5,055 bases of DNA. It comes from Chloroflexota bacterium (GTDB lineage: Bacteria; Chloroflexota; Anaerolineae; B4-G1). Below are positions 350 through 4,934 of the stretch, in pieces. How positions within the stretch are numbered: the stretch's first letter is position 1; each line of letters opens with the position of its first letter. The notes below the pieces were generated by a model. It was not told the DNA's origin and did not search any database. It worked only from the letters and a program-made list of their open reading frames with translations. The stretch covers positions 1-5,055 of the forward strand of contig JAAEPW010000173.1 in the NCBI GenBank assembly GCA_024232355.1. The letters are read 5' to 3'. The position numbers and the translations under genes are program-made.

Positions 350-1369
350 TCAAGTCTCCCTGACCAACTTGCTCAGGTCAAACGTATACACCGCCGGTGC
401 TCGGCGATACGTCACGTCCAGGTTACCAATGTATCCCAGCGTTGTCGCCAATCCACTGTGCCCCAGGTTCTGCTGGATTGCTACAGGATCTGTTCCCGCT
501 TCAAACAGTCTGCGAGCATACGTCCGGCGCAGATCGTGGGGCTTGACGTGAACCATTTCGCCATCCACCATCATCGGATACCGGCCCATAATGTGCCCGA
601 TCGCCCTCACGCTTAATCGCCCAGTGCGTAGCGTCTTGCCGCCCTTGTACAGCCCACGGAACACGTAGCCTCCACCGATACCAGCCTTGCTGAACCAGGC
701 ATCCACTACTGCCAGCACCCACGATAGCTCTCCGTAGGGAACCAACCTTTCCTTGCACCCTTTTCCCTCCCTAACGTGGAGCGCCAACTCTCCACCCAAG
801 CGTTGGCGCAGATCGGGCACTTTTAACGACGAGAGTTCCGCCTCGCGGATACCCGTACATAGCATCAGAGCGATCACCGCCGTGTCACGTAACCCCATCA
901 GGGTGTTCACACCGGGGGCCATCATCAGTGCCTCAGCTTGCTCCCTGGTCAGGCGCAGGTGGGCACTATCCGCCCGATCCTGAGAAACCTTGACTCGGAC
1001 CTGGGACGCCTGTGGGGCTATGGCATTCTCCACGCGAGTGAGAATCTCGTCCACGAACGATTTGCGGTCCGAGGGGGCATCTGCCACCTGTTCGGCCAGA
1101 CGATAGAGGCTATCTCGCGTGGCATTGTCCCGAACGATGGCTCGGTAGCGAGCACGGATCGTGGATAGGTGTGCGTTCACGGTTGCAGGGGCCTTTCCTG
1201 CATCCTCCATTGCATCCCGGTAGGCCGCCAGGTCAACCTGGTGCCACAGCAAGTCGCGGTCATCCATCCAGACCACAAACTGTCCGAGTCTGGACTTGGT
1301 ATGTTTATCAGCATTTTGAGGGATGATGATGCCGCCGATACCGGTTTTGAGGGTTAGACCATCACTCAT
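350..1369 (-). CDS. Tyrosine recombinase / phage-type integrase
   Basis: This 339-aa enzyme should cut and rejoin DNA through a covalent 3'-phosphotyrosine intermediate. Residues ~22-115 look like the helical core-binding (SAM-like) domain and ~138-325 like the catalytic domain. The full active-site set is visible: R175 in CTGIREAELSSL, a beta-hairpin lysine in GKGCKER (K203 likely), H278 and R281 in HDLRR, H304 in NLGHSGL, and nucleophile Y313 in LGYIGNLD. It appears intact and near Cre in length (343 aa), and the segment after Tyr recalls Cre's YIRNLD. The overall sequence is closer to ordinary integrases than to Cre. The start is ATG at 1369, with GGAG 9 nt upstream. It overlaps the stop of the zinc-ribbon gene by 8 bp, so translation is probably coupled. 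The likely substrate is the lox-like inverted repeat upstream of the operon; that link is inference. Confidence 0.93.
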   Translation of the reverse strand: MSDGLTLKTGIGGIIIPQNADKHTKSRLGQFVVWMDDRDLLWHQVDLAAYRDAMEDAGKAPATVNAHLSTIRARYRAIVRDNATRDSLYRLAEQVADAPSDRKSFVDEILTRVENAIAPQASQVRVKVSQDRADSAHLRLTREQAEALMMAPGVNTLMGLRDTAVIALMLCTGIREAELSSLKVPDLRQRLGGELALHVREGKGCKERLVPYGELSWVLAVVDAWFSKAGIGGGYVFRGLYKGGKTLRTGRLSVRAIGHIMGRYPMMVDGEMVHVKPHDLRRTYARRLFEAGTDPVAIQQNLGHSGLATTLGYIGNLDVTYRRAPAVYTFDLSKLVRET

Positions 1370-1586
1370 CTTTTTTCACTCCGAGCTTTTGTAGCCATTC
1401 ACGATACTCGTCTTCCAAGATTATTCTATCGACGAAATCGGATACTATTTGACGGATTTTTCTTTGCCGGGCTTTCTCACCAGTCAGAATTCGCTGGAGC
1501 CGGTATGCATCGTAACAATCCTGGTTGCAGAATTTCTGATGACGTGGAGAGTGTTTAGCACAATTTAGGCATGTCGTCATGGCCAC
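1362..1586 (-). CDS. Small zinc-ribbon-like protein coupled to the recombinase
   Basis: This 74-aa protein has two cysteine pairs near its N-terminus, C6-x2-C9 and C20-x3-C24, in the pattern CxxC-(x10)-KFCNQDC seen in many short bacterial zinc-binding proteins. A basic and acidic, probably helical tail follows with no other recognisable domain. The GTG start at 1586 is preferred because a GGAG/GAGAAAGAG purine stretch lies about 10 nt upstream. An in-frame ATG at 1580 would lose only two residues and keep all cysteines. It is the first gene of the operon and its stop lies inside the recombinase start region, so both should be made together. A DNA-binding accessory factor, such as a directionality factor or regulator, is plausible from position and from the zinc site, but the sequence does not prove it. 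Confidence 0.8.
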   Translation of the reverse strand: MAMTTCLNCAKHSPRHQKFCNQDCYDAYRLQRILTGEKARQRKIRQIVSDFVDRIILEDEYREWLQKLGVKKDE

Positions 1587-2710: not shown

Positions 2711-3307
2711 ATGCGCATTCTCAGTCTGCGACGTGGCTTTGAGGCCGACCACAGCTCTTCATCCTACGAATTCTTTGCCCTCGATAAATTGACATCCGAA
2801 CAGCGCGAGTCTGTGCAAAAGCTGACCGGGGAGTCAGCCCGACGCCACTTGCGCTTTCACTATATGGGCGACTGGAAGGACATCCCCTCCAACTGGCCGG
2901 ATAAACTGCTCACGATGGGCTATGACGTTCTGGTCAGCGAGAGCTACGACTGGTGGGGCGTTTACCTTTCGCTGCCCCAGAACCCGATCTTGATGGAACA
3001 ACTGCCCCAATATGACTGTGACGCCGATGGTAACGGCTTTAGTGTGCGCACGGTCAGCGAGCGAATGATCCTCTACTTTGGGATGCAACTGGATTATGGT
3101 GCGATGTATGACAAGTTCGGAGAAGACGCTTTCGAGGGACTGGCCGACCTGTTCGAGCAGGTACGGGACGAACTGCTTGCCGGTGACTTGAGCGCAGTGT
3201 GGGCGACGTACAAAACCTACGGCGGGTACGACGATAGTGAACCGGAACCCGTTGAACCGTTGTCTGCCAGCGCCGGGACATTGCTGAATGTGATGGAGCG
3301 CTACTAA
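2711..3307 (+). CDS. 198-aa protein with ILSLR-GF-DHSSSS N-terminal block; candidate maturase substrate
   Basis: The N-terminus MRILSLRRGFEADHSSSSYE aligns without gaps with the product starting at 4596 (14 of the first 26 residues identical). It is also reminiscent of the GF-xx-NSSS-xSF openings of many small bacterial hypotheticals. The body recalls an uncharacterised family with YEF-x-A-x-D-xxLT-x-E (19-30 here), a GD-W-K segment (53-56), a W-rich strand ending in LSLP (81-89) and a late LRxELxxGDLxAL stretch (VRDELLAGDLSAVW, 151-164). I recall such proteins near SWIM zinc-finger genes; this comparison is from memory. It is acidic, with one Cys (in YDCDAD), and has no signal peptide or membrane segment. 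The stop lies 5 bp before the radical SAM gene. The proposed role, substrate of that enzyme through an N-terminal leader-like tag, is inference. Alternatively it is a partner or immunity-type protein. Confidence 0.85.
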   Translation: MRILSLRRGFEADHSSSSYEFFALDKLTSEQRESVQKLTGESARRHLRFHYMGDWKDIPSNWPDKLLTMGYDVLVSESYDWWGVYLSLPQNPILMEQLPQYDCDADGNGFSVRTVSERMILYFGMQLDYGAMYDKFGEDAFEGLADLFEQVRDELLAGDLSAVWATYKTYGGYDDSEPEPVEPLSASAGTLLNVMERY

Positions 3308-3312
3308 GACCA

Positions 3313-4599
3313 ATGGAAGTCTGGCAACTGGCAGAGGCAGTGACTCTGCGGCCCGAAGCCTTTGGCGGGATGGCCTTCCACCGCGAGCGCGGCATTACGC
3401 TAGAGGTGGATACGGAGGCATACCGCTTCCTGTGCGCCTATCTCCAACCTCGCCCGCTGCCGTCGCCCAACCACCCCGCCGCGCGCCTGGTGCCACAACT
3501 AACGCACCTGAGCTTTATCTGCCCGGCAAACACAAATTGGGACCAACCGACGCTGGTTCCAGATACGCCCTGGCTGGGTGACGATCTTGCGCTCTCCGCA
3601 CCGGAGACGATTCACCTGGCGATCACCACTCGCTGCAATCTATCCTGTCCTGGCTGCTACGTCCCACACCCGGATGCCGGTATCGGACCAGAATTGACTG
3701 TTGCCGAATTGCGCGAGTTGATCGATCAATGGGCGCAGATGCGCGTCTTCCAGCTAGCTGTGGGGGGCGGCGAGCCCTTGCTGTACGATGGCCTGTTCGA
3801 CGTGCTGACCTACGCCCGTGAGCGGGGCATTGTACCCAATCTGACCACCAACGGGACGTTACTCAGTACCGACGTGATCCGTCACTTGGTGTGGGCCGGT
3901 GTGGGCCGCGTCAACCTCAGTTGGAATGGACCAGACAACAGACACCGAGGGCGAGGCCAATCAGCCATGCAAGCTTTGCGAATGCTGCTCAACTCGACGC
4001 TGCGGGTGGGTGTGAATCTATTGGTCACACCAACATTGCTTCCCCATCTTTCTCAAACACTGGCTCGACTGCAGACGCTGGGCATCCAGGGGGTGACAAT
4101 TCTACGACCTAAACCACCCGCCATATCCTCCAAACCTAGCATAGCCTGGTACAATGCCAACAGGCTCCGCCGCGCCGATCTGCTTCGTCTGCGTACCATC
4201 CTGAACGGCTGGCAAGGCGTGTTGAGGATAGAGGTGGACAGTGCTCTGGTCAGTCTGATGGGAGACGCAAACCCAACGCTCTTGCGCCAACGCGGAATCC
4301 ACGGCTGTACCGCCGGGCGACGTATCTGCACAATCTGGCCCGATGGACGCGTGACCCCTTGCTCATTCCTGGCCGACCTCAGCGTTGGGAACGTGCGCCA
4401 GACACCATTCGCCGAACTGTGGGAACGAGGGGAGAACTGGGGTGTATTGCGCGACCCTACCATCCAACTCCAAGGCAGTTGCGCTAACTGCGACATCGCA
4501 TCGCAATGCGGTGGTGCGCGCTGTGTGGCCCGCCACGAGCACGGTGATCTGTTCGCCGGAGACATCCAGTGTCCACATTATTTGGAGTCAGTAGAATGA
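3313..4599 (+). CDS. Radical SAM/SPASM peptide maturase with N-terminal PqqD-like recognition region
   Basis: This is a 428-aa cytoplasmic iron-sulfur enzyme. Residues ~8-45 (LRPEAFGGMAFHRERG then a hydrophobic TEAYRFLCAYL helix) resemble a PqqD-like RiPP recognition element, which binds leader peptides. The radical SAM core carries C108-x3-C112-x2-C115 for the SAM-binding 4Fe-4S cluster, GGGEP at 151-155 and TTNGT at 178-182. A C-terminal SPASM region (~332-423) has C332, C339, C350 after a PDGRVTPC motif, then C390-x2-C393-x5-C399-x4-C404 and C420, suitable for auxiliary clusters. Such enzymes usually modify ribosomal peptides by forming C-S or C-C crosslinks, epimers or excisions; the reaction here cannot be read from sequence. 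ATG 3313 follows the previous stop by 5 bp. The nearest GGAG is 14 nt upstream, so translational coupling is likely. Its stop overlaps the next ATG. Confidence 0.93.
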   Translation: MEVWQLAEAVTLRPEAFGGMAFHRERGITLEVDTEAYRFLCAYLQPRPLPSPNHPAARLVPQLTHLSFICPANTNWDQPTLVPDTPWLGDDLALSAPETIHLAITTRCNLSCPGCYVPHPDAGIGPELTVAELRELIDQWAQMRVFQLAVGGGEPLLYDGLFDVLTYARERGIVPNLTTNGTLLSTDVIRHLVWAGVGRVNLSWNGPDNRHRGRGQSAMQALRMLLNSTLRVGVNLLVTPTLLPHLSQTLARLQTLGIQGVTILRPKPPAISSKPSIAWYNANRLRRADLLRLRTILNGWQGVLRIEVDSALVSLMGDANPTLLRQRGIHGCTAGRRICTIWPDGRVTPCSFLADLSVGNVRQTPFAELWERGENWGVLRDPTIQLQGSCANCDIASQCGGARCVARHEHGDLFAGDIQCPHYLESVE

Positions 4600-4934
4600 A
4601 TATCCTGAGCGTCCGCACCGGCTTTGCGACAGACCACAGCACGGTAGCTTATCGCTACACAGCCCCCGACAAGGCCACTGCCTGGCGTGCGTTCTGGAAA
4701 GGATTGCCCGCCATCTGTGCTGCCGGACAGGTGCGGAATCTGACATTGTTTTCACCCGAGCCATTGCCCAAGATAAACTTGCCGCTTCAGCCGATCCACC
4801 GTTTTCTATTCATCGAGGATGACTACGAATCGCTGGGGGATGAGCCGCCTTACTATCTGGGCATTGACCTGACCTTTGACGAGTGGCGGGACCTGATCAC
4901 CAAGTATCGTCGGCAGTTAGGAACGAGAATTTAA
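4596..4934 (+). CDS. 112-aa protein with ILSVR-GF-DHS N-terminal block; candidate maturase substrate
   Basis: The ATG overlaps the radical SAM stop (ATGA, 4596-4599), with GGAG 8 nt upstream, so it should be translationally coupled to the enzyme. Residues 1-26 match the product at 2711 without gaps: I3, L4, S5, R7, G9, F10, D13-H14-S15, Y19, A23, D25 and K26 are shared. The rest (LTLFSPEPLP, then FLFIEDDYES and a PPYYLGIDLTFDEW segment, then a basic tail KYRRQLGTRI) matches no family I recognise. There is one Cys and no signal peptide or membrane span. A common head with unlike bodies, on both sides of an enzyme with a fused recognition region, suggests a second substrate; that is inference. 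It may instead be a short diverged paralog of the 198-aa protein. Confidence 0.82.
   Translation: MNILSVRTGFATDHSTVAYRYTAPDKATAWRAFWKGLPAICAAGQVRNLTLFSPEPLPKINLPLQPIHRFLFIEDDYESLGDEPPYYLGIDLTFDEWRDLITKYRRQLGTRI

Follow-up and report, generated by a model that had tools for sequence, protein, structure and literature searches.

The window analysed here, a stretch of 5,055 nucleotides at positions 1 to 5,055 of contig JAAEPW010000173.1 from a Chloroflexota bacterium (assembly GCA_024232355.1), encodes three tightly packed genes in which a radical S-adenosylmethionine (SAM)/SPASM enzyme, B, lies between two proteins, A and C, that share an N-terminal block of 26 residues, referred to below as the tag. 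Homologues of this enzyme travel with larger tagged proteins in very different bacteria, which suggests, as far as sequences can tell, that the enzyme uses the tag to modify whole folded proteins. The interpretation preferred here, with a probability of roughly 0.58, is a two-gene maturation module in which the enzyme would carry out a leader-guided radical SAM modification of folded A (in the window also of C), while a second branch of the enzyme would act on another family of tagged proteins, D. Its computational basis is formed by the pairing of the genes, the conservation and specificity of the tag, the globular body of A, the second partner family and a fold at the start of B that resembles the recognition element (RRE) of ribosomally synthesised and post-translationally modified peptide (RiPP) systems.

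A pattern scan of a genome collection covering 84,980 species, for which either of two patterns from A (DHSSS[ST]YEF or SESYDWW) sufficed, returned 43 stretches, 34 of them encoding relatives of A. These loci span Chloroflexi/Anaerolineae, Bacillota including Halanaerobiales, Omnitrophota, Elusimicrobia, Lentisphaerae, Planctomycetaceae, Poribacteria, Aerophobetes, Actinomycetota and one unplaced bacterium. Paradesulfitobacterium and Natroniella are among the carriers of the module. At 28 of the 34, A carries the tag and is adjoined by a homologue of B on the same strand. Two others are cut by contig ends (L007, L018), three hold fragments of A with neither tag nor intact B (L031, L033, L034), and in one (L032) the tag is fused to B in place of the RRE-like domain. 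The 28 include loci where the enzyme frame is broken or its N-terminal part is not in frame (L027, L019, L024), one where the enzyme is cut by the contig start (L009) and four with a short or split A (L016, L019, L021, L029). The L032 fusion was given little weight as evidence for a partnership of tag and enzyme, since another in-frame fusion, at L096:345-1451 (-), links the start of the enzyme to the end portion of A without any tag and suggests that such fusions are deletion products.

A precedes B in the Chloroflexota and follows it in the other loci with both genes, the two being separated by -44 to +46 bp (21 loci measured). In the window, A and B are 5 bp apart and B overlaps C by 4 bp, the coordinates and spacing given by the original prediction being those of the open reading frames (ORFs; Table 1). 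Pairwise distances within the A and B families were correlated with r = 0.946 over 19 pairs including the window, and with r = 0.927 over 16 pairs after removal of the window, L001 and L003; neither value was reached in 5,000 permutations. This correlation shows joint inheritance, not interaction. No third shared gene was detected among frames of at least 70 amino acids (aa), the largest other cluster occurring in 4 of the 34 loci, and the same limit of 4/34 for neighbour clusters applies to the absence of a conserved protease or exporter nearby. A hidden small peptide substrate was not found either among frames of 20-90 residues within 2.5 kb, where the largest group occurs in 3/34 loci. The comparison with known families covered 85 of the 145 neighbours; among the 25 of 101 families listed, the most frequent was seen 4 times and an MFS transporter 3 times.

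Between A and C, 14 of the 26 N-terminal residues are identical without gaps, whereas over the following 86 ungapped positions only 7 are. The BLOSUM62 score over residues 2-26 is 66, a value that none of 200,000 shuffles reached (best 31). When C was compared with the collected loci (tblastn, E 1e-3), the A-family genes and the L032 fusion were matched through C residues 1-26/32 only. These results uphold the initial observation of a common N-terminus with hardly any likeness beyond it. The tag was then turned into a profile of 28 residues (A3, with the tag of C included) and run on the genomes of 22 of the 34 loci, genomes that were picked for carrying A. It gave 23 matches at E 0.05, all beside the enzyme on the same contig and one of them fused, so that there is no sign in these 22 genomes of a block that is widespread without a linked radical SAM gene. 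In 400 Chloroflexota genomes, in some of which the number of scored candidates was capped, the profile gave at least 3 matches, at known loci; one further match, of 13 residues (E 0.005) in a 16-residue frame, was taken as chance. Among 8,278 six-frame segments from the 34 loci, 32 strong matches were obtained, all in A-family or fusion genes, and no other segment matched below E 0.3.

Taken with its occurrence only at the enzyme in the 22 genomes, the conservation of the block although its residues 1-13 are predicted unfolded, its presence on the bodies of A and C and, in related form, on that of D, and the RRE-like fold of the enzyme support the conclusion that the N-terminal block behaves like a recognition tag.

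The body that follows the tag in A is itself conserved. A protein search with A gave 157 matches at E 0.1 among 265 candidates, and the 120 of them that were listed, own entry included, are 66-100% identical to A over 87-100% of its length. In an alignment of 29 members the mean column identity is 68% and a variable core is absent. The AlphaFold2 model of A is a globular domain with a mean predicted local distance difference test score (pLDDT) of 86.4 and a predicted template modelling score of 0.85. The original prediction of a conserved leader followed by a variable core is consequently not supported; its statement that the tagged proteins differ after the shared block holds between A and C, whereas A is conserved over its full length within its own family. 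Residues 1-13 have a pLDDT below 50, yet they are well conserved, the mean frequency of the majority residue being 0.76 for residues 1-13, 0.82 for 1-22 and 0.57 for 23-198 (23 sequences). No Pfam or NCBIfam match to A was found at E 1, no convincing relative in the PDB, and fold comparison of the model gave no clear match. At the family cut-offs, neither A nor C reached any Pfam family, and none was reached in NCBIfam. A and C contain one Cys each, in agreement with the low Cys content noted from the outset.

Invariant blocks in the 23 sequences, drawn from many phyla (alignment A2), include D-H-S-S, Y19, F21 and S-E-S-Y-D-W-W at 76-82. In the model, residues 16-22 form a strand, while strands 73-78 and 81-89 flank the hairpin turn at which SESYDWW lies. 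Part of the invariance of SESYDWW comes from the search itself, as this motif was one of the two patterns used for finding the loci; the tag is less affected, since in many loci it reads DHSST and they were therefore reached through SESYDWW. Less biased than the pattern-found loci are the 120 listed relatives of A (own entry included), in which Y-x-W-W is present in 120/120 and the strict tag pattern in 117/120. Two variants define Y-x-W-W as the robust core of the hairpin motif, namely SEEYSWW in L081, a locus found through the enzyme, and TQDYDWW in a 142-aa protein of L002. The latter keeps the tag, YDWW and part of the remainder and lacks the middle of A.

The assignment of B as a radical SAM/SPASM enzyme is firm, with both PF04055 (E 4.6e-17) and PF13186 (E 1.9e-9) above the Pfam cut-offs. 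In 23 B-family sequences, C108, C112 and C115 of the CxxxCxxC motif are invariant, and C390 and C393 nearly so. Among the NCBIfam matches listed for B (25 of 74) no cut-off was reached, the best being NirJ2 with 126 bits against 500. An RRE is described in passages of PMC12710340 as three strands followed by three helices. Residues 1-70 of B were modelled with a pLDDT of 94-96 as strands and two helices, and the best structural alignments were to solved RREs; helix 2 is absent in the window protein, and L022 and similar homologues have extra residues where it would sit. MftB (TIGR03967) matched 23/23 of the N-terminal domains at E <=1 (best E 1.9e-6), the window protein with E 2.4e-4 and 21.3 bits, under the cut-off of 33. 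Pfam PqqD (PF05402) is not among the 11 families matched by the 23 sequences at E 0.1. The fused PqqD-like region that had been proposed is modelled as an RRE-like fold without the middle helix; MftB matches it below the cut-off in the window protein, and the Pfam PqqD family itself is not matched at E 0.1.

Some further observations were made on the enzyme family. Many B homologues outside Chloroflexota (L006, L010, L020, L022, L023, L028) have a C-terminal extra region of about 100 aa that the window protein lacks, and single weak matches to DeoR and PafC helix-turn-helix families occur among the 23 proteins. At L063:1387-2523 (+), a radical SAM/SPASM-like enzyme starts with a very short N-terminus (RYEHFGGIVV) that resembles, by eye, a reduced RRE-like strand pair, and no tag match is present in that locus. 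Separate frames with weak RRE-like profile matches are seen at L083:2483-2788 (-), 102 residues, and L084:1140-1547 (+), 136 residues (E 4.2e-6 and 6.1e-6); the local radical SAM enzymes match without the domain.

The second partner, D, extends the pairing beyond A. Two genomes carry another enzyme, whose match to B starts at residue 6 or 9 and ends at 422, and D, a protein of about 270 aa that starts MLRARWxGYEIDSSEAAYE, adjoins this diverged branch of the enzyme. It was found in 9 of the 298 genomes in the class of G001, with a B homologue adjacent in 9/9 (in 2 partly), and in 2 of the 22 A-bearing genomes. A protein search with D gave 228 matches at E 0.001; 119 of the 120 listed have the tag pattern and the other starts just past the tag. 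No convincing Pfam family was found for D. Profile comparison aligned the tags of A and D, RGFEADHSSSSYEFF with QGYEIDSSEAAYEVS, at E 3.1e-4 and a probability of 40%, a score reached by 65 of 20,000 column shuffles, and gave no alignment of the two bodies (probability 2.5%). The N-termini of the D-type enzymes align with the RRE-like domain of B (E 3.4e-6, probability 88%), and single sequences among them match MftB weakly or not at all (3/6 at E 0.5).

The pairing was also approached from the enzyme side, in a search that is partly independent, most of the genomes being those found through A or D. Matches that both lacked the N-terminal domain and had <=217 bits were dropped, namely 11 of 25 rows in the class of G001, 4 of 10 in the class of G010, 1 of 2 in the phylum of G020 and 11 of 20 in the class of G015, where one more row was the second piece of a counted gene. 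The 29 genes kept comprise at least 14 in 298 genomes of the first class (where no more than 5 candidates were scored in each genome), 6 in 82 genomes, 1 in 149 and 8 in 59, respectively. A tagged partner adjoins 24/29, counting L080:3019-3285 (+), where the A gene beside the enzyme is truncated after about 47 residues. In the remaining cases the tag is fused to the enzyme (L072), the enzyme is fused to A without the tag (L096), the enzyme is truncated and has no partner (L073), or the enzyme gene runs off its contig (L093, L095).

From these results we infer how the tag would be bound, which proteins would be substrates (A, C and D), where they would be modified, and what the product and its role might be. 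The RRE-like domain of B would bind A, and in the window C as well, through the flexible tag (roughly residues 1-14), which probably attaches as an extra beta-strand, and the folded body would thereby be held against the active site of B. There, a deoxyadenosyl radical would introduce one or a few oxidative changes into A. The strongest candidate for the site, with odds put at about one in three, is the hairpin Y79-x-W81-W82; Y79-D80 was ruled out as the site by SEEYSWW of L081, which lacks D80. The product may be a crosslink or an altered aromatic residue used by the finished protein, and the second enzyme branch would act likewise on D. A broader idea, which can be put forward tentatively and with less than even odds, is that of a transferable tag on unrelated globular proteins (A, C and D), through which one enzyme family would install a protein-derived crosslink or an aromatic cofactor after the body has folded, as an independent parallel to the tryptophylquinone enzymes that has perhaps spread horizontally among the many phyla in which it occurs.

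Other explanations of the same data were weighed. The tag could itself be the modification site, B acting on D-x-S...Y (A 13-19) beside the RRE-binding strand and the body then needing the modified N-terminus or releasing it. D-x-S-x-x-x-Y is indeed common to A, C and D, whereas Y-x-W-W is found in the A family and not in C, and residues 1-13, for which the model has no confident fold, may be accessible for that reason; residues 16-22 of A, however, are modelled as a strand, and the hairpin at 76-82 is conserved at least as well as the tag, albeit with the search bias described above. This explanation is judged rather unlikely. Alternatively, A and D might be accessory subunits, serving as scaffold, chaperone or electron-transfer partner and docking through the tag, while the substrate lies elsewhere, which would fit the conservation of A throughout, as in a working protein, and the lack of a fold match pointing to a substrate. 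Neither a third conserved gene (4/34 loci at most) nor a small frame (3/34) was found to take the place of that substrate, and the two tagged proteins per enzyme seen in the window (A and C) and in L002 (A and the 142-aa protein) fit several substrates better than several scaffolds, so that this possibility carries a low probability.

It is also improbable that the likeness of the tags reflects nothing more than a gene duplication from which A and C arose, the block being structural and the RRE-like domain binding something else. The 142-aa protein of L002 shows that such proteins do diverge, but residues 1-13 are conserved though predicted unfolded, in D a similar tag precedes a body in which no similarity could be detected, and tag matches never lie away from B in the 22 genomes. 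As for an ordinary RiPP precursor, with the tag as leader and a piece of A or C excised to give a small product, RREs in RiPP clusters often lie near radical SAM proteins or are fused to them (passages of PMC12710340). Against this stand the conservation of A over its whole length and its globular model, the absence of a widely conserved protease or transporter among the neighbour clusters (4/34 loci at most) and the single Cys in A and in C, and the explanation is considered very improbable. Leader-guided modification of folded proteins remains the preferred reading.

Most of what is known about RRE-guided radical SAM enzymes concerns peptide natural products. SuiB, CteB, TigE and other RRE-fused radical SAM/SPASM maturases have short precursor peptides as substrates, whereas the partners here are full-size proteins. 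MftB is a separate RRE protein with a short peptide substrate. The likeness of MftB/MftC and PqqD/PqqE to the present system lies in the pairing of an RRE, here an RRE-like domain, with a radical SAM/SPASM enzyme; their RREs are separate, whereas here the RRE-like domain is fused and the partner has 110-270 aa. PqqD is likewise described as a separate RRE protein with a short peptide substrate (in part of PMC8326336). According to passages of PMC8326336 and PMC12710340, RREs serve leader binding, the leader forming an added strand in CteB, and are often fused to radical SAM/SPASM enzymes; in SuiB the leader sits in the active site, and many such enzymes act without a leader.

QhpD, as described in a portion of PMC7876137, is a radical SAM enzyme that modifies a protein subunit, QhpC, by means of its N-terminal 28-residue leader, both being encoded in one operon. 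QhpC, the gamma subunit of quinohemoprotein amine dehydrogenase (QHNDH), is a leader-held protein substrate, as A would be, but it is Cys-crosslinked and mostly random coil, whereas A and C each contain a single Cys and A is modelled as a folded domain. The QhpD model matched 2/23 of the B-family N-terminal domains (best E 0.031). QHNDH genes are absent from the 25 of 101 neighbour families listed, no search having been aimed at them. Three-residue cyclophane radical SAM enzymes act on aromatics in short motifs, YxdB forming a Tyr-Asp link (sections of PMC11002830). This is aromatic chemistry as would be needed at Y-x-W-W, on substrates that are small peptides, and serves as an analogy only.

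The enzyme class and the use of a leader have precedents. For the partners, the second family of tagged proteins and the arrangement with folded substrates, the literature searched gave no description: no title or opening of an abstract describes the A-B pair and the four motif strings occur in 0 papers, in a coverage that leaves most subscription journals outside. Full-size folded partners of two types sharing a tag would widen the scope of leader-guided modification, and folded-protein substrates would suggest that there are protein-derived cofactors or crosslinks of an unknown kind. A tag that proved portable could be used to target selected proteins for radical modification.

Table 1. Features of the A-B-C gene group, in window positions
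Feature	Position	Strand	Length	Remarks
Gene A	2711-3307	+	198 aa	ORF; predicted to be a folded substrate, tagged at its N-terminus
Tag of A, residues 1-26 (MRILSLRRGFEADHSSSSYEFFALDK)	2711..2788	+		residues 1-13 predicted unfolded, 16-22 strand
SESYDWW, A residues 76-82	2936..2956	+		beta-hairpin turn; candidate modification site
Gene B	3313-4599	+	428 aa	radical SAM/SPASM enzyme, N-terminal RRE-like domain
RRE-like (PqqD/MftB-like) domain, B residues 1-71	3313..3525	+		compact form without middle helix
CxxxCxxC radical SAM cluster motif of B (C108, C112, C115)	3634..3657	+		
SPASM domain of B, residues 332-394	4306..4494	+		
Gene C	4596-4934	+	112 aa	second tagged protein, without Y-x-W-W
Tag of C, residues 1-26 (MNILSVRTGFATDHSTVAYRYTAPDK)	4596..4673	+		

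C has no hairpin motif and falls short of P0123, the longest of its relatives at 162 aa; it may therefore represent a truncated copy or else a further substrate that is modified at a different site. Inspection by eye of three of its relatives (P0125, P0126, P0127) revealed an early part that is kept and then switches to different sequence, and in another (P0128) the early part is joined to a stretch resembling the radical SAM enzyme; these junctions may represent either repeated breaks or assembly artefacts.

In some of the other loci, the neighbours (L022:4258-6234, L006:1354-2397, L010:1278-2195, L025:4922-6004, L013:5917-6384) include a DUF6933-PRiA4_ORF3 fusion, a nucleotidyltransferase-HepT pair and SEC-C, Fic and UPF0158 proteins. 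A link to defence islands is not claimed from the SEC-C, PRiA4_ORF3, DUF6933, UPF0158, HepT and Fic neighbours, which occur in some loci only and for which there is no background rate.

Upstream of A in the window, a gene for a cold-shock domain fused to an RRM domain (2104-2667, +) ends 43 bp before A; its single partial match among the collected loci lies in L027, about 6 kb from A. Further upstream are a tyrosine recombinase (PF00589, E 1.3e-20) at 350-1369 (-) and a 74-aa protein at 1362-1586 (-) with weak zinc-finger/treble-clef Pfam matches below cut-off, two genes that suggest a mobile or accessory region. Beyond the 3' end of the recombinase gene lie two direct repeats, one of 39 nucleotides (92%) at 1-39 and 216-254, 215 bp apart, and one of 19 nucleotides (89%) at 86-104 and 300-318, 214 bp apart.
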